Assembly (NCBI GenBank): GCA_030710605.1
Contig: CP092884.1
Location: 16,225,483 to 16,289,482 of the forward strand
Reading direction: 5' to 3'
From: Cordylochernes scorpioides
Taxonomy: Eukaryota; Arthropoda; Arachnida; Pseudoscorpiones; Chernetidae
DNA length: 64,000 nucleotides
The notes under the pieces were generated by a model that saw only the letters and a program-made list of their open reading frames with translations, had not been told where the DNA came from and did no database searches. The position numbers were made by a program, and so were the translations under genes. Positions 2,502 through 58,735 of the stretch are shown one piece after another. Position 1 is the first letter of the stretch, and each line of letters begins with the position of its first letter.

Positions 2502-2510
2502 TTTCCCCCC
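2502..2510 (-). promoter_or_regulatory. Polypurine tract of element A
   Basis: In element sense GGGGGGAAA directly precedes the 3' LTR, the position expected for the plus-strand DNA primer of reverse transcription. Confidence 0.8.
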
Positions 2511-2880: not shown

Positions 2881-5800
2881 TTAAGTTATTTGTGAAGGCT
2901 TAAGAATTGTTGCTGATATTTGTTCTTCATTGTCCATGTCCAAAATATGGCCTTCCTGTAAAAAACATGGTTTATCATCAATATCTATTAACTTTGTGTT
3001 AGAATTTTGGTTTACTATAAAGTCATTTTCTATGTTAGTACTATAGTGAAGTAAAAAATCTGTTTCTGGGTAAAATAATTTAAGCTTATTTGAGTGTATA
3101 ATTTCTGTTTGTTTTCTTTGGGGTATATTGGGCTTATCTATTTCATATGTGACTGGAGAAAGTTGTTTTAAAATAGTAAATGGGCCTATATATCTTTGTG
3201 TTAATTTACCAGTGTTTGGATAAATAAAGGTTTTTACTAATACCTGATCTCCTTCTTTAAAAATGGGTTCTGGGTGTTTAATATCATAAAGTTGTTTGCT
3301 GTGTTCATGGGATTTTATGGTTCTTTCAATGGCTAATTTTCTTGCCTTTTCAATTGGTGTATGTGTTACTGTGTCATGTTCTATATACTGTGGTTGTATT
3401 CCATAGTATAAGAATTTAGGTGTAAAGCCTGTTGTGGTATGTACTGTTTCATTATAGCTTTCAGTAATTTTAGGAATATATTTTGTCCAAGGAATCTTTA
3501 AATTAGCATTATATTCACATCTTAACCTATTAATGATAGTGGAATTTAGTCTTTCTACTTTTGCATTTGTTTCTGGGTGATGGGAACTGGTGAGTAGATG
3601 CTTAACATTATTTCTATCTAAAAAGTGTTTAAATTTTCTGCTAAAAAAAGCTGCATTTCTGTCAGTTATTAATATTTCAGGTTTATTAATTTGGAATAAA
3701 TTTCTCAAACAAGTTATATAAGAATCAGTTGATACAGATTTTGTTGGAAAAGCCCAAAGGAATCTACTATGGTGATCTACTATCATATGGATACTATGTC
3801 TTGTTGTCCCATAATTATGTAACCCGCCCAATGTATCTAAAGAAAAAATGTGATTTGGGTGTGTAGCTATTGGCATCTGTTGTAGTGGTCCATAAACAAT
3901 TCTGTTATCCCTAGACTTGTTAAACTGGCAAGTTTCACAATGTTTGGTGTAATTAGCAATATCTCTAGTCATATGTGACCAATAATAGTGTGGAGAAATT
4001 ATTTTAGTCATTTGAGTTGTTCCAATATGCCCATGCTTTGTGTGTACTTTGCTTAATAATTTGTGTCTTAGTGTTTGTGGTACATAAGCTCTTTTAAAAC
4101 CTCTTCTATTAATAATGTAGAGGCCATTTTGTATTTTAATTTTAGCACTACTAATTTGTTCTGTGGATTGGTGTTCTTTTAACTCATTATATGTTAGGTA
4201 AAATGAGACAGGTGCTCTTGATAGCATGTCTGCTTCTATATTATTTAATCCTTTAATATGTTTTATGTCAAAGCTATATTGAGATAGGATTAAAGACCAT
4301 CTAAATAATCTACCATGTGGGTTTTTTACATTTTTGATCCATTTTAAAGGTAAGTGGTCTGTGTGCAAGGTAAAATGTATGTTGTGTAGATATGTGTGAA
4401 ACCTTTGTACTGAATTAATGATAGCTAATGTTTCAATTTCTGAGGCAGTATAATTCTGTTCATATGGATGAAGTTTTCTTGAAAAATAACCTATGGGGTG
4501 TAAAATGCCTTGCTCATCTGGTTGTTTAAGAACTCCTGCTACTCCTAGACTTGACGCGTCTGTGAATAAATGACATGGTTTTGATGGGTCATAAATATAT
4601 AGTACAGGTTGTGATATGAGTGAATTTTTAAGTGTTTGGAAGGCTTGTTCATGTTTCTCACTCCATAGCCAAGGAGCATTTTTTAACAAAAGTTCATTCA
4701 AAGGTGCCCTAATTTGCGCATAATGGGGAATAAATTTATTATAAATATTTATGGTGCCTAAAAATCTCTGTAAGGTTTTAATATTATATGGTCTATTTAA
4801 TTTTAAAATTGCTTCAATATTTGTGTTATTTGGTGTATATTTTCCTGAGTTAATAGTGTATCCTAAGAATTGTATTTCTTTTTGTAAAAATTTGCATTTA
4901 TTGAGATTCAGCTTTATATCCTCTTGTTCGAATATACCTAATATGTCATCTAAATGTTTAATGTGTTCTTCATAAGTTTTAGAGTGTATAATAATATCAT
5001 CAAAATAATTTAAGGCATAGTGTATATTATGCTTAGTGAAAACTGACTTCATAATCCTTTCAAATTGTGAAGGTGCATTTTTTAGACCATATGGAAGTCT
5101 GTTCCATTCATAACATCCTAATTGTGTTACAAAGGAGGTTTTATGTCTATCTTTTTCATCTATGGGTATATGCCAGTATGCATTTTTAACATCTAGAATA
5201 GTATATATTTTTGACTGTGATAACCTATCTATAATTTGTTCTATAAGTGGAATTGGTGTATGTTCTGGAACTGTTTTTTGATTAAGTTTCCTATAATCTA
5301 TACAGAGTCTTGTGGGGTGATTTGGGGCATCAGATTTCTTATTCACTAATAATGCAGGAGAACTATAGGGGCTAGATGAGGGTCTAATAATATCATATTT
5401 TAATAATTCAGTTATTTGTTTTTGTATTTCAGCATTATTGTAAAAAGATGTCCTATATGGCTTTTGTGCTATGGGAATATTATCTAAAAGAGATATGCAA
5501 ATTGGGTTAGTCTTTATGTGTCCTATATCAAAATTGTGTTTAGAGAAAACATTCTTATATTTATGCAATATATCTGAAATTGTTTGATTAGAAAAATTTG
5601 GATTAATATCTACTTTGCTAAAGTCTAAATATGAATTATAATTTGTTATAGAGCCCGGTTGTCGCATACTGTGAAATGGGTTAGAATCAGTAATGGGATT
5701 TGAATTAGGATCTATAAGTTTAACATTTGTAGTTGGTATATCAAAAGAATTGAAATTACACAATGGGTTAATCTTTAAAAGAGATGAATTTTTAACATAG

Positions 5801-6990
5801 TATGGGTCTGGAATACATAGGGTAGTGGCATATGACTTCTGATTATCAGTTTTTGGATTAAAAGAATACAAGAATTTATAATTTTGGAAAAGAAGGTTTT
5901 TTGAAAAATCTATTTGCAACTTAAATATATAAAATGTTGGTAAACCTAAAATAAGATATTCTATTGGACTATCACAAACAAACATTTCTTGATACCTTGT
6001 AATTTTACCTAAGCTAAGCCTAACTAATATTTTGTATAATGGGTAAGTAAATCCTTCTACCTGACCTATTCTTTCTTTTGGGGAATTATCTAATATTTTA
6101 TAATAAATATGATTTAAGTATTTTAAAGGGATAATAGATATGGATGATGCAGTGTCAAGTACACAAGGTAAAGATATTTGGTTTATAAATACAGAAAAAA
6201 GTAATAATGTTCTACCTGGGTTGATGCGCTTCGGATGATTATTGTTCTTAAGTGGGCAGTCTCTATGGAAATGGATCTGGTTGGGTAGCTGGTGAGATGC
6301 ACATATCTTGCAGGGGTATGGGGGTAGGTTTATGGGTTTGTGGGGTTCTTGCTGGTGGTGAGTTGCTGCTGCTGTCCTGGGAAAAGGCTGGTATTGATGA
6401 GCTAGGGAGGAGTTGGAGTTAAATCTTTTTACTGGAGTGCTTGTACTGGTAGAGGGTTGTTGGGGTTCTTCTTCTTTATTTGTTGATAATTTTAATTGGG
6501 TTGTGATTTTATACCATTCTGAAGGTTCTTGTACTCTTGCAGCTATTATATATTTTTTTAGGTGATCTGGCATTCCATCTGTAAGTGCTTCTAGTAAAAG
6601 TGTTTTTTCAAGATTAAGTTTATTGGCTAAGGCAGATTTTTCTTTAAAATATTGTTCCAGATCATCTTTATCAATATATTTTAAATTTAGAAACCTACTG
6701 AATAAATTTGAATCTTTAATTGTGAAATATGATGTTAATTTTTGTTCAATTTCCCCCCAATTATCTATATCTTGTAACTCTTCTATATAATAATTGAAAG
6801 CTTCACCCTCGAGATAATTTGATATATTATTTTGTTTAAAATCTTCATCAAGATGCTTCTGTAAACATTTTTTGTTAAAGAATTTGAGCCAAGATATTAT
6901 GTTTAAATTTTGACCATTAAATTTCGGTATTTCTATAGTATTTGGATATGGCGTTATGGCGTGTTCTACATTCCTTTGTTTGCGAGACAT
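2881..6990 (-). CDS. Gag-Pol polyprotein of Ty3 element A (1369 aa, single ORF)
   Basis: One frame encodes capsid through integrase, with no gag stop or frameshift. Gag-like residues lie at about 15-180. A zinc-knuckle-like CCHC follows (C227, C230, H240 or H242, C245). The aspartic protease motif reads DTAS at 279-282, where DTG is usual. The reverse transcriptase contains LCIDYRKLN, LDVKNAYWHIPI, and the catalytic YFDD at 662-665. RNase H has FTDAS with D811. The integrase has an HHCC region, then D1052, D1110 and E1146 (D-x57-D-x35-E). A chromodomain-less tail carries the RYIGPF (GPY/F) motif. The order PR-RT-RH-IN is that of Ty3/gypsy. The ATG at 6990 is the first in the frame, 79 nt inside the 5' LTR boundary. 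All catalytic residues except the protease glycine look intact. Confidence 0.95.
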   Translation of the reverse strand: MSRKQRNVEHAITPYPNTIEIPKFNGQNLNIISWLKFFNKKCLQKHLDEDFKQNNISNYLEGEAFNYYIEELQDIDNWGEIEQKLTSYFTIKDSNLFSRFLNLKYIDKDDLEQYFKEKSALANKLNLEKTLLLEALTDGMPDHLKKYIIAARVQEPSEWYKITTQLKLSTNKEEEPQQPSTSTSTPVKRFNSNSSLAHQYQPFPRTAAATHHQQEPHKPINLPPYPCKICASHQLPNQIHFHRDCPLKNNNHPKRINPGRTLLLFSVFINQISLPCVLDTASSISIIPLKYLNHIYYKILDNSPKERIGQVEGFTYPLYKILVRLSLGKITRYQEMFVCDSPIEYLILGLPTFYIFKLQIDFSKNLLFQNYKFLYSFNPKTDNQKSYATTLCIPDPYYVKNSSLLKINPLCNFNSFDIPTTNVKLIDPNSNPITDSNPFHSMRQPGSITNYNSYLDFSKVDINPNFSNQTISDILHKYKNVFSKHNFDIGHIKTNPICISLLDNIPIAQKPYRTSFYNNAEIQKQITELLKYDIIRPSSSPYSSPALLVNKKSDAPNHPTRLCIDYRKLNQKTVPEHTPIPLIEQIIDRLSQSKIYTILDVKNAYWHIPIDEKDRHKTSFVTQLGCYEWNRLPYGLKNAPSQFERIMKSVFTKHNIHYALNYFDDIIIHSKTYEEHIKHLDDILGIFEQEDIKLNLNKCKFLQKEIQFLGYTINSGKYTPNNTNIEAILKLNRPYNIKTLQRFLGTINIYNKFIPHYAQIRAPLNELLLKNAPWLWSEKHEQAFQTLKNSLISQPVLYIYDPSKPCHLFTDASSLGVAGVLKQPDEQGILHPIGYFSRKLHPYEQNYTASEIETLAIINSVQRFHTYLHNIHFTLHTDHLPLKWIKNVKNPHGRLFRWSLILSQYSFDIKHIKGLNNIEADMLSRAPVSFYLTYNELKEHQSTEQISSAKIKIQNGLYIINRRGFKRAYVPQTLRHKLLSKVHTKHGHIGTTQMTKIISPHYYWSHMTRDIANYTKHCETCQFNKSRDNRIVYGPLQQMPIATHPNHIFSLDTLGGLHNYGTTRHSIHMIVDHHSRFLWAFPTKSVSTDSYITCLRNLFQINKPEILITDRNAAFFSRKFKHFLDRNNVKHLLTSSHHPETNAKVERLNSTIINRLRCEYNANLKIPWTKYIPKITESYNETVHTTTGFTPKFLYYGIQPQYIEHDTVTHTPIEKARKLAIERTIKSHEHSKQLYDIKHPEPIFKEGDQVLVKTFIYPNTGKLTQRYIGPFTILKQLSPVTYEIDKPNIPQRKQTEIIHSNKLKLFYPETDFLLHYSTNIENDFIVNQNSNTKLIDIDDKPCFLQEGHILDMDNEEQISATILKPSQIT

Positions 6991-7069
6991 TTTGTAAAAA
7001 TAGTTTTATGAAATTTGAATAATTAATAGAGCAATTAGGTTGAAATTTCAGGTAATCCTGTCGACTTAT

Positions 7070-7460
7070 TGTTATGAATATTTTGTGTTGTTGTTAGATT
7101 AGGCTTGATAAGACAAAGGATCGATAAGATAAAGGGTTGAGGTGCAGTCGTGATAAAAAAAGATAAATATTTACCGTCAAGTAGCTTTTATTTTCAATTA
7201 CTTGAGGAAAGATTACACATTTGTTAGTTTTCACATTATATAGAATTTATAATTTAATCCTATATTAGTGATTTAAAAGGATTGATTGGTTAACTACGCA
7301 TATTTACAACAAAATTATACAACGAAACTAAACAACTAAACTAAAAGTCTTTCTAAAAACGATGATAACAAAAATAAAAATTATCAATGAATAAAATGAA
7401 ATATATATTTTTAAAATATAGAAATATTTAGAGTTTTTAGATTATATAATATTTTTAGAT

Positions 7461-7469
<9 letters not shown>
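7070..7469 (-). repeat. 5' LTR of Ty3 element A
   Basis: Second copy of the 400-bp LTR. It carries the promoter end of the element and should drive transcription leftwards. The outer edge fuses with the AT microsatellite, so the last few bases are arbitrary. Confidence 0.93.

Positions 7470-7537
<68 letters not shown>
7468..7537. repeat. (AT)n microsatellite, right half
   Basis: About 70 bp of pure AT repeat adjoining the 5' LTR of element A, continuing the tract at 2079-2101. Confidence 0.9.
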
Positions 7538-8925: not shown

Positions 8926-10165
8926 TCTTCATTTCCTCGCCGTGCTCGCTTCTCCTCCTTCGGACCGTGCTCATTTCTCCGCCTCCTCGCCGTGCTCGAT
9001 TTTTCGCTTCCTCGCCGTGCTCGATTCTCCGCCTCCTCGCCGTGCTCGATTCTCCGCAATCTCAATGTGCTCGATTCTCCGCCTCCTCGCAGTGTTCGAT
9101 TTTTCGCCTCCTCGCCGTGCTCGATTCTCCGCATCCTCGCCGTGCTCGATTCTCCGCCTCCTCGCCGTGCTCGATTCTCCGCTTCCTCGCCGTGCTGGAT
9201 TCTCCGCCTCCTCGCCGTGCTCGATTCTCCGCATCCTCGCCGTGCTCGATTCTCCGCATCCTAGATGTGCTCGCTTCTTCGCCTCCTCGCCGTGCTCGTT
9301 TCTCCGCCTCCTCGCCGTGCTCGATTTTTCGCTTCCTCGCCGTGCTCGATTCTCCGCCTCCTCGCCGTGCTCGATTCTCCGCAATCTCAATGTGCTCGAT
9401 TCTCCGCCTCCTCGCCGTGTTCGATTTTTCGCCTCCTCGCCGTGCTCGATTCTCCGCCTCCTCGCCGTGCTCGATTCTCTGCTTCCTCGATGTGCTCGAT
9501 TCTCCGTCTCCTCACCGTGCTCGATTCTCCGCTTCCTCGCCGTGCTGGATTCTCCGCCTCCTCGCCGTGCTCGATTCTCCGCATCCTCGCCGTGCTCGAT
9601 TCTCCGCATCCTAGATGTGCTCGCTTCTTCGCCTCCTCGCCGTGCTCGTTTCTCCGCCTACTCGCCGTGCTCGATTCTCCGCATCCGTGCCGTGCTCGAT
9701 TCTCCGCATCTTCGTCGTGCTCGATTTTCCTCTTCCTCGATGTGCTCGATTCTCCGCCTCCTCGCCGTGCTCGATTCTCCGCCTCCTCGCAGTGCTCGAT
9801 TCTCCGCATCCTCGCCGCACTCGATGCACCGCTTCCCTGATGTGCTCGATTTTCCGCCTCTTCGCCGTGCTCGATTCTCCGCATCCTCGATGTGCTCGCT
9901 TCTTCGCCTCCTCGCCGTGCTCGATTCTCCGCATCCTCGCCGTGCTCGATTCTCCGCATCCTCGCCGTGCTCGATTCTCCGCATCCTCGATGTGCTCGAT
10001 TCTCTGCATCCTCGCCGTGATCGATTCTCCGCTTCCTCGCCGTGCTCGATTCTCTGCTTCCTCGATATGCTCGACTCTCCGCCTCCTCGCCGTGCTCGAT
10101 TCTACGCCTCCTCGCCGTGCTCGATTCTCCGCTTCCTCGATGTGCTCGTTGCTCCGCTTCCTCCT
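8926..10165. repeat. 25-bp minisatellite, about 50 copies
   Basis: GC-rich tandem array in an AT-rich setting. The unit resembles CTCGATTCTCCGCCTCCTCGCCGTG. Because 25 is not a multiple of 3 and the unit lacks stop codons in most registers, long open frames appear on both strands and in several frames. Each translates a 25-residue repeat, and these are by-products. Variant units recur at longer spacing (350 bp between the CTGGAT variants at 9195 and 9545; 325 bp between the CTCAATG variants at 9061 and 9386). That is a higher-order pattern of 13-14 units from segmental duplication inside the array. Confidence 0.95.
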
Positions 10166-16987: not shown

Positions 16988-17444
16988 TGTCAAATTATAT
17001 TGACAAATATTCGCACTCTTATCTTATCCTATTTCTTTAGTGCGAAGAAAGTTGTTTTATCAGATAAGTAAACCGATCTCTCCAGCATTCTAATTGGACG
17101 AATGTGGCCATGTTTGTATATAAAGGGGGTTGAAGGGAATGCGTGGGAGCATTGTGATTTAAAATCTTGTGCAGAGACACTTATAGTGCTCTCTTCGTTT
17201 TTTTTTTTCCGTGCTTGGTGTTCTCTACGCATCCCCTGAGTGACCCCGGTCCGATCCCTACATAAGCAGAAATAAAAGATAAGTACTTTTATTTTTATTT
17301 AACTAATTGTGAATTATTATTTACTTTTTTTTTTGTGTGTGTTATACTTTTGCGTGTACGGTTTTATTGTGTTCAAGTTACTCTTACGGTAGGCCCCGTA
17401 TATTGCAATTTTGTGTGTTAACCCGTAAATAGTAACTTTTGTCA
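16988..17444 (+). repeat. 5' LTR of element B
   Basis: TGTCAAATTATA ... CTTTTGTCA. TATATAAAG at about 17116-17124 is a good TATA box for the element promoter. AATAAAA near 17270 is a candidate polyadenylation signal for the R region. Confidence 0.95.
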
Positions 17445-17445
17445 T

Positions 17446-17463
17446 TGGCGAGCCTTGCCAGGA
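17446..17463 (+). promoter_or_regulatory. Primer-binding site candidate of element B
   Basis: TGGCGAGCCTTGCCAGGA begins one T after the LTR end. TGG at this place pairs with the CCA end of a priming tRNA. I cannot name the tRNA from the sequence alone. Confidence 0.65.
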
Positions 17464-17565
17464 TAGTTTCTTGGCCTATATTCCCGTAATTTTGGCCTTG
17501 AGTTTTTTTATTATCTTTTATATAATTAATTATTGTGTGTAATTTTTGTCTTTCTTACTGTTATT

Positions 17566-18339
17566 ATGGATAGTAACTATTCTATCAAACTTTCTACGTT
17601 CAATGGAGTGGGGCTAAAAGCTTTCATCAGGGAAGTAGAGCTGAAAGCTAGCATAGGTAAATGGAATAAGGAAGTTAAAGCACTGCTTATGTTCGAGGCT
17701 TTGTCGCCTAGAGTTCGGGCTAGCATAGAAGAGATGGGCATAAAAAATGACAGTAGTGTAGAGAGCATTATAGAGAAATTAGGCATTTTATTTCCTGAAA
17801 AAACGCGCGGATTTAGGGAATGTTTAAAAGAATTAGAGGGTCTTAAGCAACGTGTAGGAGAAACTCCTAATGTGTTTAGAGAAAGATTCATGGCCACAAG
17901 GAGAGATATTGATTTCGATCTGGACAGCAGTTTAGTGTTCGATATTTTCGTAGACAATGTTCTTGATAAGTATAAGGAACCTGTTGTCCGTAGTGGGGTC
18001 AGCTGTATTGACGAGGCAGTTAGAATTATGGCCATGGAAGATGGTGTAGAGAACCGCTGCCACTTTAAGCAACGGGCATGTGCGGCGGACATAGAGGAGG
18101 TTAGCAGTCTGAAGGGAAGGTTAGATACGCTCAATGCTGTAGTAGGCAAGACAAAGCACGAGTCAGAGAAGTGCATTAACGACCTTAAGGAGGAAATAGA
18201 AAGGCTGACTAAACTGCTTAGCGAGAGTAAGCCGGGTTCTTCTAAAAATGGCGGTAGGCATAAATTAACATGTTTCCGCTGTGGGAAGATGGGGCATATT
18301 GCCAGGTTTTGCAAGGAGAAAGGAGCTTTAAACTACTAA
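17566..18339 (+). CDS. gag: Gag of element B (257 aa)
   Basis: Nucleocapsid/capsid precursor that packages the element RNA. I take the ATG at 17566: the frame is open further up to 17533, but only a TTG lies there. The middle (residues about 10-165) has the helical retrotransposon-gag character. A charged, coiled-coil-like stretch at about 180-222 (KHESEKCINDLKEEIERL) follows. The C-terminus carries a CCHC zinc knuckle: C236, C239, H244, C249. The gene ends TTA AAC TAC TAA, and the last codons overlap the frameshift slip site and the pol frame by 70 nt. Confidence 0.93.
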   Translation: MDSNYSIKLSTFNGVGLKAFIREVELKASIGKWNKEVKALLMFEALSPRVRASIEEMGIKNDSSVESIIEKLGILFPEKTRGFRECLKELEGLKQRVGETPNVFRERFMATRRDIDFDLDSSLVFDIFVDNVLDKYKEPVVRSGVSCIDEAVRIMAMEDGVENRCHFKQRACAADIEEVSSLKGRLDTLNAVVGKTKHESEKCINDLKEEIERLTKLLSESKPGSSKNGGRHKLTCFRCGKMGHIARFCKEKGALNY

Positions 18340-21300
18340 ACTCGGGCAAAACGGCCAGTGCTTGCTCGAGTTGGCAGAAGTCAGCCACTGGTATTCGACC
18401 AATTGCTAAGATTGTTAATGTTCGTTCTAACCGGGATCCTGTTGGAACTCTGCCTATTGTTAGAGTATCAATAAACGGCAATACTTGGCACCTGTTATAC
18501 GATACAGGAAGCCAAGTTAGCATAATGGATTCAGAAAGGTGTAATGTTCTGAATGAGGACTGGGACGAAGCTATTAACAATCTTAAAATTGTGTCAGTTA
18601 CAGGCCACGTCCAGACATTGACAAAGGTAAAAACCTGTAGGGTAAATACAGATAAGGGTATCGAACTAGGAGACATAAGTTTCTGGTTAATGCCACTTGA
18701 AGATAAGCGCTACGACGGTATTCTTGGTATAAAGGAGATAAGGAGATTAAACATTTCTTTGCCACCTGTGTGGGAGGAATGCAATGTAATGTCTGCGGCG
18801 ACTGAAGACTGGCAACTGGTAGATATTGGCCAAGTTAATGGCAAACATCAGCAGCTTGTCCGCGACATACTGCAACAAAGATCAGATATGTTCGTGGAAA
18901 ATGTCGCAGCGTTAAAAGCAGCTAAGGTTCCGCCGATAAAAATTGACGTTGACATAAATGACGTTACTTTTAGGCGGCAGTATCCTATTCCCTATAGTTT
19001 GTTAGAGCCGTACAAGGTACTTTTAGACAAGTTCTTAGAGAGCGGTATCATAAAAAGATCCAGATCTGATTGGAACAGTCCAGTACATCTTGTCAAGAAG
19101 CCTGACGGTTCCTTGAGATTCGTGCTGGACCTTAGACAGGTCAACGATAAATTAAGGAATCAAGATTATCCCATGATCCGGATAGACACCGCCATGGCAG
19201 CTGTGGGAGGTGCTAAATATTTTAGTACCTTGGATCTAGCCAGTGGGTATTATCAGCTGAAGCTGGATAGTAACGTAACGAAATGCTTCGCTTTCCAAAC
19301 CCCTTTCGGAAAATTTGAGATGTCGAGACTTCCTCAGGGCTGTAAGATATCTTCGAATGTATTTCAGAGAGAAATGCATCGTATCCTAAGCGGCCTATTG
19401 GGCAAGAATTGCCAATGTTTTATTGACGACGTTCTGATATACTCGGAGTCGTTGGAGCAGCATCTGGCTGACTTAACTGAGGTGTTGGACAGGCTTAGAA
19501 AATATGGGCTTCAAGTGAGGCCGAGCAAATGCCAGCTCTTTCAGGAAGAAGTGACCTTCTTGGGACACAGAGTGGACAAAGATGGCATTCATCCTAAGGA
19601 GAACAACATCGAAAAGATTAAAAACATGAGTCCTCCCAAAACTGTATCAGGTGTCAGACGCTTTCTTGGAGCTGTTGGTTTCTATAGGAAATTCATTGCT
19701 GGTTTCTCTGAAATAGCGGCCCCTTTATATGAGTTGACTAAGAAGGGCACCAGGTATGAGTGGAACGAGGCAGCGCAGCGTGCGTATGACAAGCTAAAGA
19801 CTTGTCTTAGCTCTGCACCCATCCTAATTTATCCTGACTACAGGGAAAAGTTCCTAATATTCACTGATGCTAGCGACATAGGATGTGGCGGGATGTTATC
19901 ACAGTTGAAGAACGGCACTCCGCAGCCTATTAGTTTCTACAGCCATAAGTTCAGAGGTGCCGAGTTAAACTACAGCACAATAGAAAAGGAGTGTTTGGCT
20001 ATTATTATGGCAATTGAACAGTTTGACTACTACATCTATGGTCAGCAGGTGGAGATATACTGTGATCACAAACCATTGCAATATCTTAAGTCACTAGAGA
20101 ATAAAAATCGTAGGCTCATGAAATGGGCCTTGATGCTACAGGACAGGGAATTAACATTTTTCCATGTAAAAGGGAAGGAGAATGCGATGGCTGACTGGCT
20201 GTCCCGCGACACCTATAATACTGAGGTTGCTGTAGTCGATGTCTATGGAGGGGTGACTACCATTCCCAACTATGAGAAGTCCATGATGAACTGCCCTGTA
20301 TGGAAAAACATCTACAAGGGGGCTCTGAGCACTGATAGTGAGGTAGAAGAGGGTGATGGCACGTATTTTATAAGCAAGTCCACCCGATATCTCGTCAAGG
20401 TCAGTCCAGACAGTAGACCCACTCGTAAGGGAAGGATGGTGAAGCAAATCGTAATACCTCCAGTTCTCCGCGATACCATTCTGGAAAGGTGCCATGACAG
20501 TCCCATAGGAGGGCACCTCTCAGTAGAGAAAACACTTTACGCGGTCTTAAGCCATTACTATTGGAAGGGGGCCATGTCTGATGTACGTAGGTACGTGAAG
20601 ACATGCCCAGTGTGTGCCGAGAACAATGGTAGGCTTAAGAAAGCTCCTAATATGCCCATTCAACCCGCTAACTACCCTTTCGAAAGGTTATGCGTAGACT
20701 TCGTGGGTCCTCTTACCTTGTCTAGGAACAGGAATAGATACCTGCTCGTGTTCATTGATGCTTTCACCAGGTACGCTGAGGTTATCCCCGTCAGGGATTG
20801 TACCGCAGAGACTGCTGGGCTCGAGTTTGTCAATAAGATAGTGAACAGATATGGAACGTGCAAAGAAATTTTATCTGACCGTGGAGCTGCATTCGAGTCT
20901 GACCTTTTCAGAGAGATATGTAAATTATATAGTATTAAAAAGTTATCCACAACTTCTTATCGTCCTACCTGCAACTCGATTGTTGAAAGAGTTAATGGCA
21001 CCATTTGTTCCATTCTACGTCACTATGCCAATAGCAGGAATTGGGAAGACAACCTCGGTGCGGCGGTTGCTGCGTACAATAACGCCGTGCACTCAGCGTT
21101 AGGTGAGAGCCCCCACTACATGCTCTTTGGTTACGATGCAGTCAATCATGAAGTTAGCGATAAAGATGTGAGCGAATTCAGAAAGCCATCCTTGGCGGAG
21201 AGATTGAAGGAAATGCAAGATGCCAGGGAAACAGTTAGGAAATTCCTGTCTGAAAACTATGATAAACGAGTCAAGAAGTATAAAACGCAGACTGTGAGAA

Positions 21301-21752
21301 CCTTTGAGACGGGGGATTTGGTATTGTTGGCTGTTCCTAAGGGCAAGGGGTCCTCTAAATTCTCCGCAAAATTCTATGGACCTTTCCGTGTGGTAGCTAA
21401 GGTGTCTGAAGTAAATTTCAGAGTGCGCGGAGTCAATTTGCACGATGAACAAGTTGTGCATATTGACAGGATGAAGGCATTCAGGGGCATGCGTCATAGA
21501 AAGCCCACAGCTGCTAAACGCGAGTGCTATCCTCGGAGAAGGATGATTCCTTTGGCTCGGGAAGGTGGGAGTGCCTGTCGTATCTCTCCCCGCCGAGAGA
21601 TGTCCACACCACCGTTAGAGACCAAGACTGTTCCCGACCAGGAGAAAGGAGATTCTCATGACGAACCTACAGTGGTCGATGGGGCGTTCGACAGGGCACA
21701 TTTCAGCCCTTATTTTCTGAGACCAAATCCTCGCCCTGCCGATCCCAGATGA
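18270..21752 (+). CDS. pol: Pol of element B (protease-RT-RNase H-integrase)
   Basis: The frame is open from 18270 (1160 codons), but expression is most likely by -1 frameshift from gag, entering at 18333. Numbering from 18270: protease DTGS at 78-81; reverse transcriptase with FVLDLRQVN, LDLASGYYQL and the catalytic FIDD at 384-387; RNase H FTDAS with D533; integrase zinc region HHCC, then D810, D870 and E906 (D-x59-D-x35-E); KFYGPF (GPY/F) near 1035; and a basic, proline-rich tail. The domain order and the FIDD box are those of Ty3/gypsy. No internal stop and no missing catalytic residue were seen. It ends 310 nt before the 3' LTR. Confidence 0.95.
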   Translation: MFPLWEDGAYCQVLQGERSFKLLNSGKTASACSSWQKSATGIRPIAKIVNVRSNRDPVGTLPIVRVSINGNTWHLLYDTGSQVSIMDSERCNVLNEDWDEAINNLKIVSVTGHVQTLTKVKTCRVNTDKGIELGDISFWLMPLEDKRYDGILGIKEIRRLNISLPPVWEECNVMSAATEDWQLVDIGQVNGKHQQLVRDILQQRSDMFVENVAALKAAKVPPIKIDVDINDVTFRRQYPIPYSLLEPYKVLLDKFLESGIIKRSRSDWNSPVHLVKKPDGSLRFVLDLRQVNDKLRNQDYPMIRIDTAMAAVGGAKYFSTLDLASGYYQLKLDSNVTKCFAFQTPFGKFEMSRLPQGCKISSNVFQREMHRILSGLLGKNCQCFIDDVLIYSESLEQHLADLTEVLDRLRKYGLQVRPSKCQLFQEEVTFLGHRVDKDGIHPKENNIEKIKNMSPPKTVSGVRRFLGAVGFYRKFIAGFSEIAAPLYELTKKGTRYEWNEAAQRAYDKLKTCLSSAPILIYPDYREKFLIFTDASDIGCGGMLSQLKNGTPQPISFYSHKFRGAELNYSTIEKECLAIIMAIEQFDYYIYGQQVEIYCDHKPLQYLKSLENKNRRLMKWALMLQDRELTFFHVKGKENAMADWLSRDTYNTEVAVVDVYGGVTTIPNYEKSMMNCPVWKNIYKGALSTDSEVEEGDGTYFISKSTRYLVKVSPDSRPTRKGRMVKQIVIPPVLRDTILERCHDSPIGGHLSVEKTLYAVLSHYYWKGAMSDVRRYVKTCPVCAENNGRLKKAPNMPIQPANYPFERLCVDFVGPLTLSRNRNRYLLVFIDAFTRYAEVIPVRDCTAETAGLEFVNKIVNRYGTCKEILSDRGAAFESDLFREICKLYSIKKLSTTSYRPTCNSIVERVNGTICSILRHYANSRNWEDNLGAAVAAYNNAVHSALGESPHYMLFGYDAVNHEVSDKDVSEFRKPSLAERLKEMQDARETVRKFLSENYDKRVKKYKTQTVRTFETGDLVLLAVPKGKGSSKFSAKFYGPFRVVAKVSEVNFRVRGVNLHDEQVVHIDRMKAFRGMRHRKPTAAKRECYPRRRMIPLAREGGSACRISPRREMSTPPLETKTVPDQEKGDSHDEPTVVDGAFDRAHFSPYFLRPNPRPADPR
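18327..18391 (+). promoter_or_regulatory. Programmed -1 frameshift signal (slippery site plus predicted pseudoknot)
   Basis: TTTAAAC at 18327-18333 is in the right register (GCT TTA AAC) for tandem -1 slippage. A 6-nt spacer (TACTAA, which includes the gag stop) follows. Then comes a 10-bp stem: ACTCGGGCAA 18340-18349 with TTGCTCGAGT 18362-18371, one G.U pair. CCAGTG in its 12-nt loop (18355-18360) is complementary to CACTGG at 18386-18391, giving an H-type pseudoknot. After slippage the pol frame reads on from CTA at 18333. The pairing was worked out by hand; the function is inferred. Confidence 0.88.
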
Positions 21753-22062
21753 GAGCTTATTAGACCCCCATTAAACTCTGTCTATTAAAGCATATTATAT
21801 ATGTGTGTGCTTGGTAATCACTCATGGTAACTCACGTAGTTTGCGCAGATCTTTGGTTATTTTCTTTTTTGGGAGGAACAAGATGGAAGGCACCTGTATG
21901 GAACGACCTGGATGCATACTTCTCCTCTCTTTAGTTTTTTTTTTATCTTTATAACATGGCTCCCGTGAGCTTTTCCCTCCCGAATAGCGGGAGGTTTTCC
22001 TTACGGGACAATAAGAATGTTTGGTAGATTGGTTAGTTTTTTTTTTTTTGGAAGAGACCTTT

Positions 22063-22520
22063 TGTCAAATTATATTGACAAATATTCGCACTCTTATCTT
22101 ATCCTATTTCTTTAGTGCGAAGAAAGTTGTTTTATCAGATAAGTAAACCGATCTCTCCAGCATTCTAATTGGACGAATGTGGCCATGTTTGTATATAAAG
22201 GGGGTTGAAGGGAATGCGTGGGAGCATTGTGATTTAAAATCTTGTGCAGAGACACTTATAGTGCTCTCTTCGTTTTTTTTTTTTCCGTGCTTGGTGTTCT
22301 CTACGCATCCCCTGAGTGACCCCGGTCCGATCCCTACATAAGCAGAAATAAAAGATAAGTACTTTTATTTTTATTTAACTAATTGTGAATTATTATTTAC
22401 TTTTTTTTTTGTGTGTGTTATACTTTTGCGTGTACGGTTTTATTGTGTTCAAGTTACTCTTACGGTAGGCCCCGTATATTGCAATTTTGTGTGTTAACCC
22501 GTAAATAGTAACTTTTGTCA
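22063..22520 (+). repeat. 3' LTR of element B
   Basis: Copy of 16988-17444 with one extra T in the T-run after CTCTTCG. It is preceded by a purine-rich GGAAGAGA near 22050, a weak polypurine tract. Confidence 0.95.
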
Positions 22521-23025
22521 AAAGGACATCTAATTGCAGAACCAAAGTGTCTTTTAGGGAGAGGTATCTTCTTACCAGAGATTTGTTAAATTGTAAAAAT
22601 GGTAATTTTGGCGATGAAAACTGTCCTTTATAGAGTGAGGTGTTCGCTAAAAGGAGGCTCTACTGTTTTTTAAATAACTAAAATATTATTTACAGTAGAA
22701 CCTCCCTGTAAAGGACACCTAATTGCAGAGCCAAAGTGTCCTTTAGGGAGAGGTGTTCTCTTACCAGAGAGTTGTTAAATAGTAAAAATGGTAATTTTGG
22801 CGATGAAAACTGTCTTTTATAGAGTGAGGTGTCCGCTAAAAGGAGGTTCTACTGTTTTTAAATAATAAAATATTATATACAGTAGAACCACCCTGTAAAG
22901 GACACCTAATTGCAGAGCCAAAGTGTCCTCTTACCGTAGAGTTGCGAAATAGTAAAAATGGTAATTTTGAAAATGAAAACTGTCCTTTATAGAGAGGTGT
23001 CCGCTATAAAGAGGTTACACAGTAG
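22521..23025 (+). repeat. Tandem pogo-like repeats, 187-bp period
   Basis: Three units: the first split by element B (16967-16987 plus 22525-22692), the second from 22693, the third from 22880 and shorter. Each starts CAGTAGAACCTCCCTGTAAA, and the first two end in its approximate complement (AAAAGGAGGTTCTACTG). CAGTA-type termini beside TA are typical of pogo/Tigger MITEs. Non-coding. Confidence 0.82.
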
Positions 23026-30986: not shown

Positions 30987-32320
30987 TACGAGGGTTGTCC
31001 GTTAAATAAGTTCCACAGAGGTTTTTCATACAGAAAAACAGGTTTATTTGCCCTGAACTATACATTTTCGAAAATATCAGACTTTTTTTCATTTTTCTAC
31101 ATATTCCCCGTTTCGTTCGACGCATTTTTGCATTCGGGACACCCACTTATGGAACCCAGAGTCGAAGAACTCTGCCGCCTGGCCGCGTAGAAAGCCTAAA
31201 ACCGCTTCTTCCAACTCGTTATCGTCCTGGAATTGGGTTTCACCCAGGTTTTTCTTCAACTCGGGGAAGAAATGAAAGTCACTAGGAGCTACGTCCGGGT
31301 TGTAAGGTGGGTGTGACACCAATTCCCATCCAAATTCTTCGATGAGGGCGGTGGTTTGACGGGCGGTGTGCGGCCGAGCGTTGTCATGGTGTAAACGCAC
31401 CCCTTTGGTTAACATCCCTCTCCTCTTGTTCTGAATCGCGCGTCGAAGTTTTTTCAAGGTCTCACAGTACCGGTCGGAATTGATTGTTGTACCCTGACGC
31501 ATAAAGTCGTACAACAATAGACCCTTTCGGTCCCAAAAGACGGTAGCGATAAGTTTCCCGGCAGAAAGTGCTTGTTTAAACTTTAGAGGTTTCGGCGAAG
31601 AAGTGTGCTTCCACTGCTTGGATTGCTCCTTTGTCTCCGGTGTAGTGTACTGTACCCAGGTCACATCACCAGTAACGATCGAATCCAAGAATTCCTCTCC
31701 GTCAGTTTTGTGGCACTCGAGAAATTTCTGGGCCGCATCAACCCGCTGCCGTTTATGGTCTTCAGTCAGCATTTTCGGAACCCATATTGCGCAGACCTTT
31801 GAATACCCTAAATGTTCACGCAAAATCTTGTCGATGGTGGTATTAATGACATCAAGAACCAAATCGCAGAGCTTCCGCACAGTAACCCGTCGATCTTCAA
31901 GCATTGCCGCTTCGAATTTGGAAATGGTTTCGTCCGAAACCGATGGTCGTCCAGCACGCGGTTCATCGTGGACGTCTGTTCGGCCGTTTTTAAATTCTCT
32001 GACCCATCTGCGCACCATCCCGGAACTCATACACCCTTCTCCATACACTTGACAGAGTTCAGTATGAATGTCCTTCGCCGAATTATTCTTTGCGGCCAAA
32101 AAGCGAATTACTGACCGTAATTCGCAGCTGGCGGGAGACACGAGGGGAAGCTCCATCACTAACGGCTGCTCAGCCAAAACTAAGCTTACCAGCGACGTGT
32201 CTTTGGTGGGAAATTGGAGTGGGGAGAACAAGCTACGAGCCCGTGCAGTCGGCTCGAGCCTAAAAGCGATCCTCATGACAGTGGTGCCCCGTGGAACTTA
32301 TTTAACGGACAACCCTCGTA
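30987..32320 (-). mobile_element. Intact mariner transposon (1334 bp)
   Basis: Terminal inverted repeats start TACGAGGGTTGTCCGTTAAA at both ends and match for about 30 bp. TA flanks both sides (30985-30986 and 32321-32322). A single uninterrupted transposase frame fills the interior. The pre-insertion sequence is represented by the related repeat at 32605-32785. Everything needed for activity appears present. Confidence 0.95.
31089..32156 (-). CDS. Mariner transposase (355 aa, DD34D)
   Basis: Cut-and-paste transposase. The ATG at 32156 is preferred because it gives the usual mariner length of about 350 residues; the frame is open up to 32276. The N-terminal part is a paired-type helix-turn-helix domain (RSVIRFL ... 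GMVRRWVREFKNGR ... DEPRAGRPS). WVPKMLT is the mariner linker motif. The catalytic triad is D164 (TGDVTW, where TGDETW is usual), D258 (HHDNARPH) and D293 (PDVAPSDFHFF), with 34 residues between the last two. The tail contains FFDSGFHKWVSRMQKCVERN. No stop or frameshift was seen. Confidence 0.95.
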   Translation of the reverse strand: MELPLVSPASCELRSVIRFLAAKNNSAKDIHTELCQVYGEGCMSSGMVRRWVREFKNGRTDVHDEPRAGRPSVSDETISKFEAAMLEDRRVTVRKLCDLVLDVINTTIDKILREHLGYSKVCAIWVPKMLTEDHKRQRVDAAQKFLECHKTDGEEFLDSIVTGDVTWVQYTTPETKEQSKQWKHTSSPKPLKFKQALSAGKLIATVFWDRKGLLLYDFMRQGTTINSDRYCETLKKLRRAIQNKRRGMLTKGVRLHHDNARPHTARQTTALIEEFGWELVSHPPYNPDVAPSDFHFFPELKKNLGETQFQDDNELEEAVLGFLRGQAAEFFDSGFHKWVSRMQKCVERNGEYVEK

Positions 32321-35827: not shown

Positions 35828-36725
35828 TAGTACAAAAGTGAAGTTGTACTTGGATCAAGTAGATAAATTAAGAAAAATGCATCTCATGATCGTGCAACTA
35901 GAAATTGCTGATGGCTTGCGCCATCTATCGGAATAAATATTAGCAAATCGTTGATTTTTAATTATTCATAATTGGCAAAATACCGTTTCTTGATTGATCA
36001 AGAAATGATGAGCCAAGCTCTCCCAATATATTTTTTTTCATCGCAGTAAGGACAGTAGAAGTTTGTATTATGTATAAAAGAAACATTCGCGCTTTTAAAT
36101 CCTTTTATTTTATATGTATAGATGGCGCGTTATTGCTTTGTGTTAATTTATGCCTAACTGGCCCTGTCTTTATAGTTTGCTGAAGAGCATTGCTCGAAGC
36201 AAATATTTGAATGTAATGCTACTGTCCTATAAGCTTATGTCCATAGTTTACTTGAAAACCATTTCTAAGATTCCATCCTTCAGTGTAGCATATAAAAGCA
36301 GAATGATCCAATACAGTATTAGAGCTCTGAGAAGCGGTCTGGTGGATTAAATTGGCGAAACCGCTGGGAGCGTTCACCACGGATGAGCCAAGCCCTCTCA
36401 ATATATTTTTTCATCGCAGTTAGGATAGTAGAAATTTGTATTATGTATGAAGAAACATTCGCGCTTTTAAATCCTTTTATTTTATAATCAAGAAATGCTA
36501 ACTCGTAAGCGTTTTGGGATCTTGGCCCTCGTCAGCACGGTGAAAACTGTACCTCAAACACCAAATAAGCTGGTCTTTGGGACATCTTGAAATACCATTA
36601 GACAGGTATTTAGGCCGGAAGAACGTGAGCGCCAATCAATGTGAAAATTAGTACAAAAATAATAGAAAGCGCAGGTCATCAGAAACTTTAAGTTTCACCA
36701 TCAGGATATGCCTTTTTTCTTAATT
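35828..36725 (-). mobile_element. 349-bp-family hammerhead repeat, split by a 372-bp-family insertion
   Basis: 35828-35996 and 36498-36725 together match the 50.93-51.29 kb copy, with the same order of blocks. At 36501-36541 (minus) are CTGACGA, a GGG/CCC hairpin and AAAA instead of GAAA, a decayed hammerhead. The repeat is interrupted exactly at ATCAAGAAATG, which is duplicated (35997-36007 and 36487-36497). Confidence 0.8.
36008..36486 (+). mobile_element. 372-bp-family insertion, 1.3 units, with 11-bp target duplication
   Basis: A tandem of one partial and one complete unit (CATCGCAGT at about 36040 and 36412), ending CCTTTTATTTTATA. It is flanked by ATCAAGAAATG. The unit contains TATAAAAG near 36290, then GGCGAAACCGCTGGGAG and GGATGAGCCAAGCCCTCTCA. 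The same family forms the array at 48981-50263. Non-coding. Confidence 0.9.
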
Positions 36726-42640: not shown

Positions 42641-42682
42641 TATATATATGGGTGTATAATCTTGTGAATATGATAAATAGTA

Positions 42683-44166
42683 AATTAAATTTTATTGCCC
42701 TCTATCGTTAAAATTTTACACAAATAAATTTACTGGCAATGCGTTTCTTTTTTTAAATCTCTACAGACCTTACTGCAATGATATGATTTAATAAATGAGA
42801 GGGCTTGGCTCGTCAGTAGTGAACCCTCTCAGCGGTTTCGCCAAATTAATCTCTAGACCGCTCTACTATTGTATTGGACTGGTTTTGTTATATACCCTGC
42901 ATTTTCTATTGAAGGCAGCTAAATGGTGTTTAGTGAACTATGGACATAAGCTTATAGGTCTGTAGAGGTACATACATATAAATTTCAAGGTATTGCATCG
43001 AGCAAAGCTCTTCCGCGCAAAACATGTTTTCATAACCATTATATATTAGTAAATTAAATTTTATTGCCCTCTATCGTTAAAATTTCACACAAATAAATTT
43101 ACTGGCAATGCGTTTCTTTTTTTAAATCTCTACAGACCTTACTGCAATGATATGATTTAATAAATGAGAGGGCTTGGCTCGTCAGTAGTGAACCCTCTCA
43201 GCGGTTTCGCCAAATTAATCTCTAGACCGCTCTACTATTGTATTGGACTGGTTTTGTTATATACCCTGCATTTTCTATGGAAGGCAGCTAAATGGTGTTT
43301 AGTGAACTATGGACATAAGCTTATAGGTCTGTAGAGGTACATACATATAAATTTCAAGGTATTGCATCGAGCAAAGCTCTTCCGCGCAAAACATGTTTTT
43401 ATAACCATTATATATTAGTAAATTAAATTTTATTGCCCTCAATAAAATTTAATTTACTAATATATAATGGTTATGAAAACATGTTTTGCGCGGAAGAGCT
43501 TTGCTCGATGCAATACCTTGAAATTTATATGTATGTACCTCTACAGACCTATAAGCTTATGTCCATAGTTCACTAAACACCATTTAGCTGCCTTCCATAG
43601 AAAATGCAGGGTATATAACAAAACCAGTCCAATACAATAGTAGAGCGGTCTAGAGATTAATTTGGCGAAACCGCTGAGAGGGTTCACTACTGACGAGCCA
43701 AGCCCTCTCATTTATTAAATCATATCATTGCAGTAAGGTCTGTAGAGAGTTAAAAAAAGAAACGCATTGCCAGTAAATTTATTTGTGTAAAATTTTAACG
43801 ATAGAGGGCAATAAAATTTAATTTACTAATATATAATGGTTATGAAAACATGTTTTGCGCGGAAGAGCTTTGCTCGATGCAATACCTTGAAATTTATATG
43901 TATGTACCTCTACAGACCTATAAGCTTATGTCCATAGTTCACTAAACACCATTTAGCTGCCTTCCATAGAAAATGCAGGGTATATAACAAAATCAGTCCA
44001 ATACAATAGTAGAGCGGTCTAGAGATTAATTTGGCGAAACCGCTGAGAGGGTTCACTACTGACGAGCCAAGCCCTCTCATTTATTAAATCATATCATTGC
44101 AGTAAGGTCTGTAGAGATTTAAAAAAAGAAACGCATTGCCAGTAAATTTATTTGTGTAAAATTTTA
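42683..44166. mobile_element. 1.48-kb palindrome of four 369-bp units with 13-bp target duplication
   Basis: Two units read one way (starts 42680 and 43049) and two the other (from 43441 and 43810), meeting around GCCCTC at 43435-43440. Units are nearly identical. The direct repeat ATGATAAATAGTA lies at 42670-42682 and 44167-44179, showing that the whole palindrome entered as one insertion. In sense (right half) each unit holds GTATATAAC, TCCAATACA, GGCGAAACCGCTGAGAG and CTGACGAGCCAAGCCCTCTC: hammerhead-like boxes in permuted order. Non-coding; related to the 372-bp family. Confidence 0.92.
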
Positions 44167-44179
44167 ATGATAAATAGTA

Positions 44180-48725: not shown

Positions 48726-48980
48726 GCTTTAATAGCTTTAGGCCCTAATGATTTAATTTCAAGTAAGGACACATATATAAAATTTAATTTCCTTTGTTAA
48801 TATATTTAGGATATCATTAAGAAAAATGGTCATTGATGTAACGATCTCAAGGAAATATTGTACATATCTTGTGGTTGTAAACAATATATAGGTGTATGCG
48901 TGTATATGTGTGTATATATGTATATATTTTTAATTTTAATAATTAACTGTAAATATATTTCAAAGAATATCTCTATATGT
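48726..48980 (+). pseudogene. LINE 3' end, left part (interrupted)
   Basis: Matches 58321-58580. It resumes at 50276-50430 after the 372-bp array. Shared ATCTCAAGGAAATATTG and CTTGTGGTTGTAAACAATAT. The coding remnant is the last few codons of ORF2, then 3' UTR. Confidence 0.85.
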
Positions 48981-50263
48981 TAACACAAAGCAATAACGCG
49001 CCATCTTTACATATAAAATAAAAGGATTTAAAAGCGCGAATGTTTCTTTTATACATAAAACGAACTTCTACTGTCCTTACTGCGATGAAAAAATATATTG
49101 AGAGGGCTTGGCTCATCAGTGGTGAACCCTCCCAGCGGTTTCGCCAATTTAATCCACCAGACCGCTTCTCAGAGCTCTAATACTGTATTGGATCATTCTG
49201 CTTTTATATGCTACATTTAAGGATGGAATCTTAGAAATGGTTTTCAAGTAAACTATGGACATAAGCTTATAGGACAGTAGAATTACGTTCAAATATTCTA
49301 AGATTCCATCCTTAAATGTAGCATATAAAAGCAGAATGATCCAATACAGTATTAGAGCTCTGAGAAGCGGTCTGGTGGATTAAATTGGCGAAACCGCTGG
49401 GAGGGTTCACCACTGATGTGCCAAGCCCTCTAAATATATTTTTTCATCGCAGTAAGGACAGTGGAAGTTCGTTTTATGTATAAAAGAAACATTCGCGCTT
49501 TTAAATCCTTTTATTTTATATGTATAGATGGCGCGTTATTGCTTTGTGTTAATTTATTCCTAATGGCCTTGTCTTTATAGTTTGCTGAAGAGCATTGCTC
49601 GAAGCAAATATTTGAATGTAATTCTACTGTTCTATAAGCTTATGTCCATAGTTTACTTGAAAACCATTTCTAAGATTCCATCCTTAAATGTAGCATATAA
49701 AAGCAGAATGATCCAATACAGTATTAGAGCTCTGAGAAGCGGTCTGGTGGATTAAATTGGCGAAACCGCTGGGAGGGTTCACCACTGATGTGCCAAGCCC
49801 TCTAAATATATTTTTTCATCGCAGTAAGGACAGTGGAAGTTCGTTTTATGTATAAAAGAAACATTCGCGCTTTTAAATCCTTTTATTTTATATGTATAGA
49901 TGGCGCGTTATTGCTTTGTGTTAATTTATTCCTAATGGCCTTGTCTTTATAGTTTGCTGAAGAGCATTGCTCGAAGCAAATATTTGAATGTAATTCTACT
50001 GTTCTATAAGCTTATGTCCATAGTTTACTTGAAAACCATTTCTAAGATTCCATCCTTAAATGTAGCATATAAAAGCAGAATGATCCAATACAGTATTAGA
50101 GCTCTGAGAAGCGGTCTGGTGGATTAAATTGGCGAAACCGCTGGGAGGGTTCACCACTGATGAGCTAAGCCCTCTCAATATATTTTTTCATCGCAGTAAG
50201 GACAGTAGAAGTTCGTTTTATGTATAAAAGAAACATTCGCGCTTTTAAATCCTTTTATTTTAT
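48981..50263. mobile_element. Inverted/tandem array of 372-bp units with 12-bp target duplication
   Basis: One unit in reverse (48981-49295) followed by three forward units at an exact 372-bp period (starts 49296, 49668, 50040; the last truncated). It is flanked by ATCTCTATATGT at 48969-48980 and 50264-50275, inside a LINE tail whose uninterrupted sequence is at 58565-58580. The forward end is CCTTTTATTTTAT, as in the 36-kb copy. Each unit has TATAAAAG, GGCGAAACCGCTGGGAG, CTGATGAGCC or CTGATGTGCC, and an upstream CTGAAGAGCATTGCTCGAAG hairpin. Non-coding. Confidence 0.94.
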
Positions 50264-50275
50264 ATCTCTATATGT

Positions 50276-57869: not shown

Positions 57870-58048
57870 AGCAATAACGCTCCAGTGCACCCTTCAGTGT
57901 TGCATATATAAGCAGAATGATCCAATACAGTATTAGATCTCTGAAGAAGCGGTCTGGTAGATTAAATTGTCGAAACCGCTGGGAGGGTTAGCCACTTATG
58001 AGCCAAGCCTTCCCAATATTTTAATCGCAGTACGGACAGTAGAACTTT
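57870..58048 (+). repeat. Relic of the 372-bp repeat family
   Basis: TATATAAGCAGAATGATCCA, CGAAACCGCTGGGAGGGTTA and CACTTATGAGCCAAGCC match the units at 36 and 49 kb with several substitutions. Both hammerhead-like boxes are altered. An old copy. Confidence 0.82.
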
Positions 58049-58249
58049 GATTGATCTGTTAAAGATTTTCGTGTCATATTTGGTCAATCGATGGTTATCA
58101 AATATTTCGAACATTTTTGAGTAAAAATGCTCTCGAATCAAGAGATGCTGTGAGAACACTTTCATACAAATTTTATCAAACGAATCATATGTGCATATAG
58201 GAATAGCTACTAATAAAATTTAATCAGAAATATTACACACTGAAAATAA

Positions 58250-58735
58250 TATGGTAATTAGTCTTTTCTTTATACATCTCTTGCTAGAGTGCCCTGTCTT
58301 TCAAGATTACAGAGTCAACAACGGTTTAATAGCTTCAGGCCCTAGTGATTTAATTTCAAATAAGGACACATATATAAAATTTAATTTCCTTTGTAAATAT
58401 ATTTTGGATTTCATAAAGAAAAATGGTCTTTGATGTAGCGATCTCAAGGAAATATTGGACATATCTTGTGGTTGTAAACAATATGTAGGTTTATACGTGT
58501 ATATGTGTGTATATATGTATATATTTTTAAAATTTAATGATGTAACTGTAAATAAAATTCAAAGAATATCTCTATATGTAAATAATATTTATGAATCTTT
58601 CTAAGTCGCTTTCTGTGTATCTTTCCTTGTTGAATATTTTCTTTGTTATATTTGTATGTACATTTAGCGCAAGTGTCCCTAGGGGGACATAGCGTTTTGA
58701 ACTGGAATAAATAAGTAACTACATGCATTTGTTTA
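58250..58735 (+). pseudogene. LINE 3' end: ORF2 C-terminus and 3' UTR
   Basis: HLLLECPVFQDYR and DLISNKDTYIKFNFLCKYIL (58251-58433) are the last residues of a LINE ORF2. The stop is followed by about 300 nt of 3' UTR with TG/TA runs and a final GGAATAAATAAGTAA. It is the uninterrupted version of 48726-48980 plus 50276-50430, and a relative of 12743-12945. 5'-truncated. Confidence 0.82.

Follow-up and report, generated by a model that had tools for sequence, protein, structure and literature searches.

Short non-coding repeat units, inserted as tandem and inverted arrays, were found in a stretch of 64,000 nucleotides (nt) from the pseudoscorpion Cordylochernes scorpioides (contig CP092884.1, positions 16,225,483 to 16,289,482 of the forward strand), referred to below as the window. 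The array of main interest lies at 48969–50275 and is built of units of 372 base pairs (bp). We interpret these units as copies of a non-autonomous, retrozyme-like element, which carries a hammerhead ribozyme of type SGC and is inserted through reverse transcription primed at two sites, with the two products joined in inverted orientation. The probability we attach to this reading is roughly 0.8. A preliminary description of the same DNA, which took the array for a hammerhead-associated retroelement copied from multimeric or circular RNA, is partly supported by the results given here.

The main array and its hammerhead

The insert (48981–50263) consists of a partial reverse unit and 2.6 forward units. 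The reverse unit (approximately 48981–49297, minus strand) belongs to family U1, has its outer 3' end at a position termed site B (..GCTTTGTGTTA) and holds an intact hammerhead core with CTGATGA (49100–49166, minus strand; predicted cut between 49160 and 49159). It is followed on the plus strand by forward unit 1 (49296–49667; core 49366–49432, predicted cut 49372|49373), the identical forward unit 2 (49668–50039; core 49738–49804, predicted cut 49744|49745), and a truncated forward unit 3 (50040–50263; core 50110–50176, predicted cut 50116|50117), whose outer 3' end lies at site A (..CCTTTTATTTTAT). The two full units, both of 372 bp, carry the CTGATGT variant of the core, while the core of unit 3 is an intact CTGATGA. 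The preliminary description had listed one reverse and three forward units; the reverse-then-forward order and the 372-bp spacing of the forward units stand, but the third forward unit is truncated and the reverse unit is partial.

The insert is flanked by a 12-bp target-site duplication, ATCTCTATATGT, at 48969–48980 and 50264–50275. The flanks together with one copy of the duplication align to a paralogous copy of the target repeat on the plus strand (58320–58721), which has no insertion and is gap-free at the insertion point. Thus, the duplication and the empty site bear out the proposal that the array entered as one event. The target itself is an interspersed repeat. Its description as a long interspersed nuclear element (LINE) was not confirmed, as none of ten stop-to-stop frames (nine at 51.0–63.4 kb and one at 41.4 kb) had a Pfam match. 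Inside this array and a second one, of family U2, no open reading frame (ORF) of at least 150 amino acids and no stop-to-stop frame of at least 90 amino acids was present. Together with the multi-unit inserts, this agrees with the view of a short non-autonomous retroelement copied from RNA longer than one unit.

The RNA of the unit holds three hammerhead strands: AGCGG-UC-UGGUGGA, UUGGC-GAAA-CCGCU, and UUCACCA-CUGAUGA-GCYAA. They occur in the order cleavage site, GAAA, CUGAnGA, and GGGAGGG/CCCUCYC closes the last strand. This order is non-circularly permuted and cannot be drawn without pseudoknots. The predicted cut follows AGCGGUC in families U1 and U2, and AGCGGUA in family U3. The published description of type SGC has the same order and a helix that connects stems I and II, and mutations in its example SGC-3 showed all four stems to be necessary (Eckert et al., 2023; PMC10085705). 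The units studied here share with this type the S-G-C order, the CUGAnGA/GAAA/UH core, stems I–III, the joining helix, and a short linker between stems I and II. Stem III directly abuts the joining helix in them, as it does in a few members in that study, and the CUGAnGU variant, reported there to cleave, matches forward units 1 and 2. By sequence and predicted structure, the ribozyme of the unit is therefore of type SGC, and catalysis by its RNA would be expected.

Nine cores in SGC order were counted in the window: six intact, two with CTGATGT, and one damaged. A descriptor combining the core with the four stems, the thresholds of which were fixed only after the units had been seen, gave six matches in the window, all inside the two arrays, and none in 60 dinucleotide shuffles. 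The association with hammerheads claimed earlier holds for the strands and not for a conventional type: no Rfam hammerhead family matched either array, at the gathering threshold or at E ≤ 10, and a conventional (type I) hammerhead was rejected on these grounds. Rfam MIR matches fall on the inverted repeats.

Covariation was assessed in 72 distinct rows, which hold GAAA and CTGAnGA at the spacing of the family and overlap profile matches, so that intact cores are favoured; in 57 of them an S block matches at least four of seven letters. Since row selection itself requires the core, it reveals variation only at n (T in 67, C in 3, and G in 2 of the 72 rows selected for CTGAnGA) and at H after the U at the cut (C in 53 and A in 4 of the 57 rows with an S block, selected for UH). 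Three pairs differ between families in a compensated manner: pair 2 of stem I (G-C or A-U; 25 of 26 rows changed on both sides still pair), the outer pair of stem II (U-A or C-G; 8 of 8), and pair 6 of the joining helix (G-C or A-U; 27 of 29). When the registers were slid, the unslid one was best for stem II (0.95 against at most 0.56), stem III (0.94 against 0.56), and the joining helix (0.94 against 0.85).

The genome, 2.62 Gb in 24 contigs, was searched with an exact core pattern of 35 places. With TTGGC before GAAA it occurs at 34,191 places (17,077 + 17,114), and with CTGGC at 23,518 places (11,738 + 11,780), that is, at 57,709 places altogether; reversed-pattern controls gave none. These places are spread over many contigs and represent at least three families, all of which have the core: U1 (372 bp; G+C 0.358), U2 (369 bp; G+C 0.352), and U3 (CTGGC...GCCAG). 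The first 100 matches to the TTGGC pattern along contig C1 form 80 clusters, 64 of which have a single core match. Neighbouring cores at most 800 bp apart in this sample were oriented '-+' in 13 cases, '++' in four, '--' in three, and '+-' in none. In this sample the multimer, taken as the mobile form in the preliminary description, is not the usual state, although the main array was inserted whole.

Eckert et al. (2023) report type SGC from metatranscriptomes, with no known organism's genome among its sources, whereas here it is present in tens of thousands of copies in eukaryotic genomic DNA, inside a mobile element. A literature search, which did not extend to bioRxiv, most subscription journals, or supplements, returned no published type-SGC hammerhead in a genome or retroelement, and no paper that links twin priming and inverted copies with hammerheads and Penelope-like elements. 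Among the matches listed, non-circular permutation of hammerheads appears, besides Eckert et al. (2023), in two papers on software for structure comparison. No mention of arachnids was found in the hammerhead and retrozyme literature among the matches listed. Loose SGC patterns gave at least 120 stretches in viral contigs and three in genome contigs. No SGC relative was found among these matches; three weak candidates that passed the stem filter were not counted as such. The loose pattern GGCGAAACN{14,40}CTGANGAGCC recurs within some single viral contigs (L069–L148, e.g., L102, L144, and L078), and its match lengths there are often about 50–58.

Insertion ends and breaks at the predicted cut

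From 141 insertion calls, 105 were kept after removal of seven near the end of a locus and 29 with identical flanks. Part of them come from loci picked as best matches, which favours multimers and young copies, and part from loci picked by their position. Exact target duplications of at least 11 bp flank 32 of the 105 insertions, some of which may be further duplicates of one another, as compared to about 0.2 expected from mispaired flanks. Thirty of these duplications measure 11–16 bp, one 19 bp, and one 20 bp. All but one of the 32 duplication strings are distinct; the shared one (loci L036 and L038) probably represents a single insertion in a duplicated segment. The main array scores only 9 in the insertion table because the search frame clipped its 12-bp duplication.

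The inverted layout is the commonest one among insertions with clear duplications: it was seen in 27 of the 32, always as '- then +' with the 3' ends outward, and the other five are direct (three end at A and two at B). The windows for the two sites are U1 254–275 and U2 240–260 for A, and U1 283–304 and U2 272–297 for B, about 32 nt apart. Among the 27 inverted insertions with duplications, 23 end at A and B, two at A and another position, and two at B and another position (L036 and L038). The corresponding numbers for all 54 inverted insertions are 36 A/B, five A/other, seven B/other, and six with both ends elsewhere. Where some stretch of the copy is at least 95% identical to a unit of the window, 27 inverted insertions are A/B and three B/other. 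No inverted insertion has two A ends or two B ends, and therefore reverse transcription is probably primed by both ends of the target, at two fixed sites. On visual inspection, site A falls in the loop of a putative hairpin (CGCGC/GCGCG in U1, AUUGCC/GGCAAU in U2, and a similar one in U3), and site B some 13–15 nt behind this hairpin in U1 and U2.

If the RNA cleaves itself, some complementary DNAs (cDNAs) are expected to end at the new 5' end. A local sample of 148 5'-ends had the cut nucleotide in five U1 copies (one of which, L053, is probably no break) and two U2 copies. As these counts hinted at the cut but were small, breaks were counted genome-wide; a copy was scored as broken if none of the three bases before it agrees with the unit. 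The positions counted were -2, 0, +1, and +4 in U1, and -2 and 0 in U2. In U1, 126 copies start at the first nucleotide past the predicted cut, compared to 45 at 2 nt upstream, 56 at 1 nt downstream, and 29 at 4 nt downstream; 19 of the 56 are short deletions between GGT repeats. In U2, 251 copies start at the cut and 43 at 2 nt upstream. In both families, breaks at the exact cut are thus two to six times as frequent as those at the neighbouring positions counted. The control patterns differ somewhat in length and letter sets; judged from base composition, the letter sets alone would shift the counts by an estimated quarter or so either way, not 2- to 6-fold. After matches were merged within 200 kb on contigs C1–C6, with the 19 short-deletion places at U1 +1 excluded, the counts were 37 at the cut against 10, 10, and 5 at the neighbouring positions in U1, and 53 against 14 in U2.

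Part of the U2 excess is due to short tandem arrays with a spacing between neighbours of 105, 108, 111, 118, 121, 122, or 148 bp. In the two short U2 arrays that were read in sequence, L206 and one on contig C7, the units begin at the predicted cut. L206 (1195–1725) has 122-bp units and the C7 array (L214/L215; C7:6527500–6530800) 118-bp units, and in both the units end upstream of site A. Possibly, these two arrays are mini-rings or template jumps that were later expanded. At C3:159708840–159708885, two matches of opposite orientation overlap by six letters, and the copies meet exactly at their cuts. We infer that the pile-up at the predicted cut in two families is the footprint of in vivo self-cleavage, with the RNA itself as the probable catalyst.

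Proposed insertion mechanism, rival explanations and related elements

In the folded RNA of the element, stem III and the helix that connects stems I and II would each form a hairpin, and the two hairpins would kiss via stems I and II. The RNA would cut itself after AGCGGUC, or after AGCGGUA in family U3, and the unit-length RNAs freed in this way would probably be ligated into circles. A reverse transcriptase, presumably borrowed from another retroelement, would start at A or B, beside the possible hairpin downstream of the ribozyme, and travel along the RNA for less than one round or for several, which in the latter case yields tandem units. The 3' ends of a staggered target break would both act as primers in most insertions, one at site A and the other at site B. 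Joining of the two cDNAs at their far ends would then produce the inverted '- +' arrangement, in which the 3' ends face outward and the duplication mostly measures 11–16 bp.

Since multi-unit insertions run through the cut repeatedly, their template must have been either a ring or an RNA of more than one unit. A source for such a template is given by the published retrozyme model, which comprises self-cleavage, ligation to a ring, and multi-unit cDNA (PMC7761336, section 7). The rule of one A end and one B end points to priming by both ends of the break, either on a single RNA or on the pair of RNAs in one complex, followed by joining of the cDNAs. More tentatively, and with slightly less than even confidence, both 3' ends may sit on one small RNA ring, where A and B are 32 nt apart, so that two reverse transcriptions circle the same ring before joining. 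If true, circular RNA would be inserted here in a new, double-ended way, and the pseudoknotted hammerhead that serves it, so far known from environmental RNA, would have spread to tens of thousands of copies in the genome of an animal.

Three other explanations were weighed. Ordinary satellite DNA would have grown in place by unequal crossing-over, with the core being incidental. Some arrays are indeed long, and the C7 array of 118-bp mini-units, with more than 20 units, may well be an expansion at the DNA level. As a general explanation, however, this one is refuted and retains hardly any probability, as the preliminary description had also concluded: it leaves aside the frequency of target duplications, the empty site at 58320–58721, the fixed outer ends, the occurrence of places on many contigs, and the prevalence of single core matches among the C1 clusters. 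Long in-place arrays without target duplications, by which a satellite is recognized, are not what these elements form.

The second explanation is that uncut multimeric read-through transcripts are retroposed by LINE-type machinery with twin priming, the ribozyme being a passenger. An uncut transcript would supply the template of more than one unit which multi-unit inserts need. Twin priming typically leaves an inverted 5' part, and most 5' breaks in the local sample lie off the cut, the exact nucleotide being hit in 7 of 148 (the doubtful one included). The break pile-up on the predicted cut in two families, the short arrays of varied period with the cut as junction, and the presence of the core in three families all speak against a passenger, and we regard this explanation as unlikely. 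The pile-up could also arise from reverse transcriptase stops at the ribozyme fold in the absence of cleavage, given that stable RNA structure can halt reverse transcriptases. Yet the copying enzyme reaches the joining helix, CUGAnGA, and GAAA before the cut; the peak is on the cut nucleotide among the positions tested in U1 and U2; and in some cases two copies abut precisely at the cut (L206; C3:159708840–159708885). We consider this explanation of the pile-up very unlikely.

Several observations weigh against the retrozyme-like reading that we prefer. The windows of A and B were drawn post hoc from the same insertion table, and at least one end falls outside them in 4 of the 27 duplication-flanked inverted insertions and in 18 of the full set of 54. 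Set against the copy number, with 34,191 core matches, the 126 + 251 places that have a break at the cut are few. The compensated double changes represent a few family-level ancestral events recurring in many rows. All pairs other than the three named above yielded, together, two paired and four unpaired rows among those changed on both sides, and stem III had no double change in the covariation rows. In stem I, pairs 4 and 7 each fail in 28 of the 57 rows and pair 5 in 12, and the first three pairs score 0.96 in the true register and 0.97 after a slide by +3. Finally, the circular folding of the unit is no stabler than that of shuffles (z from -0.7 to +0.5), whereas published retrozymes are highly self-paired.

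Among known elements, metazoan non-LTR (long terminal repeat) retrozymes resemble the element in several respects: they have non-coding units of a few hundred bp with low G+C, occurring singly to in tandem (Cervera and de la Peña, 2020; PMC7229834), a hammerhead, and duplications that, when present, exceed 4 bp (PMC7229834; PMC7761336). Here, the non-coding units of 372 and 369 bp, ranging from monomer to multimer, have a low G+C content and duplications longer than 4 bp. The production of multi-unit cDNA from circular RNA in the retrozyme model (PMC7229834; PMC7761336) would apply as well, with circles that are presumed in our case. Differences are that metazoan retrozymes have type I hammerheads (PMC7229834) while the one found here is of type SGC, that the element has two fixed sites for its 3' ends, and that the inverted layout predominates where duplications are clear.

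Partial inverted copies are also formed by Penelope-like elements, which encode their own reverse transcriptase with a GIY-YIG domain. Some of them have a hammerhead within the retroelement, as is the case here, but these are autonomous and their hammerheads are of the minimal type I (PMC7761336), in contrast to type SGC and the absence of any frame of at least 90 amino acids in our two arrays. Another similarity exists to LINE insertions, in which twin priming produces an inverted 5' part together with target duplications. Here, by contrast, both outer ends are 3' sites (A and B), and the inverted layout accounts for 27 of the 32 duplication-flanked insertions.

If the retrozyme-like reading is true, a non-circularly permuted hammerhead is placed in a eukaryotic genome, where it would process the RNA of a mobile element, and retrozymes can rest on a different ribozyme topology. 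The fixed A and B ends would offer a handle on which machinery inserts animal retrozymes, a question left by the review cited above (PMC7761336). The pile-up of genomic breaks would be a way of seeing ribozyme cleavage from DNA alone.

Other insertions and elements in the window

The second array belongs to family U2 and is likewise inverted. It is flanked by a 13-bp duplication, ATGATAAATAGTA, at 42670–42682 and 44167–44179, and comprises two reverse units with the outer end at site B (42683–43440, minus strand) and two forward units with the outer end at site A (43440–44166, plus strand). The SGC cores of the reverse units are located at 42797–42862 (CTGACGA; predicted cut 42856|42855) and 43166–43231 (predicted cut 43225|43224), and those of the forward units at 43644–43709 (predicted cut 43650|43651) and 44013–44078 (predicted cut 44019|44020). 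A third insertion, at 36008–36486 on the plus strand, is direct, not inverted. It consists of about 1.3 U1 units with the 3' end at site A, and is enclosed by an 11-bp duplication, ATCAAGAAATG (35997–36007 and 36487–36497). Its core (36333–36399, plus strand) is damaged: it reads CGGATGA, and the joining helix contains a mismatch. Also, a decayed U1-like remnant with a damaged core was present at 57888–58065 (plus strand), for which no duplication was found.

A TATAAAAG box begins 42 nt upstream of the ribozyme AGCGG in U1 (49296–50039), and TATATAAC begins 32 nt upstream of it in U2 (43440–44166). These boxes could be candidates for an internal promoter. Retrozymes apparently have no internal promoter, according to a review (PMC7761336).

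The window also contains several unrelated elements. A Ty3-type LTR retrotransposon at 2102–7470 has an ORF of 1369 amino acids (2881–6990, minus strand) and 401-bp repeats, which are 100% identical, so that it is probably a recent insertion. The second Ty3-type element (16988–22520), typed by its domains, has a pol ORF of 1160 amino acids (18270–21752) and 458-bp repeats with 99.8% identity. Over 79% of its length, the product of this ORF shows 99% identity to a C. scorpioides protein. An ORF for a mariner/Mos1-type transposase of 395 amino acids was located at 31089–32276. Two tandem repeats were seen: 49 copies of a G+C-rich 25-bp unit (TCCTCGCCGTGCTCGATTCTCCGCC) at 8934–10163, open in several frames on both strands, and a 189-bp repeat with AAAGGACACC... 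AAGTGTCC motifs at 22521–22929.
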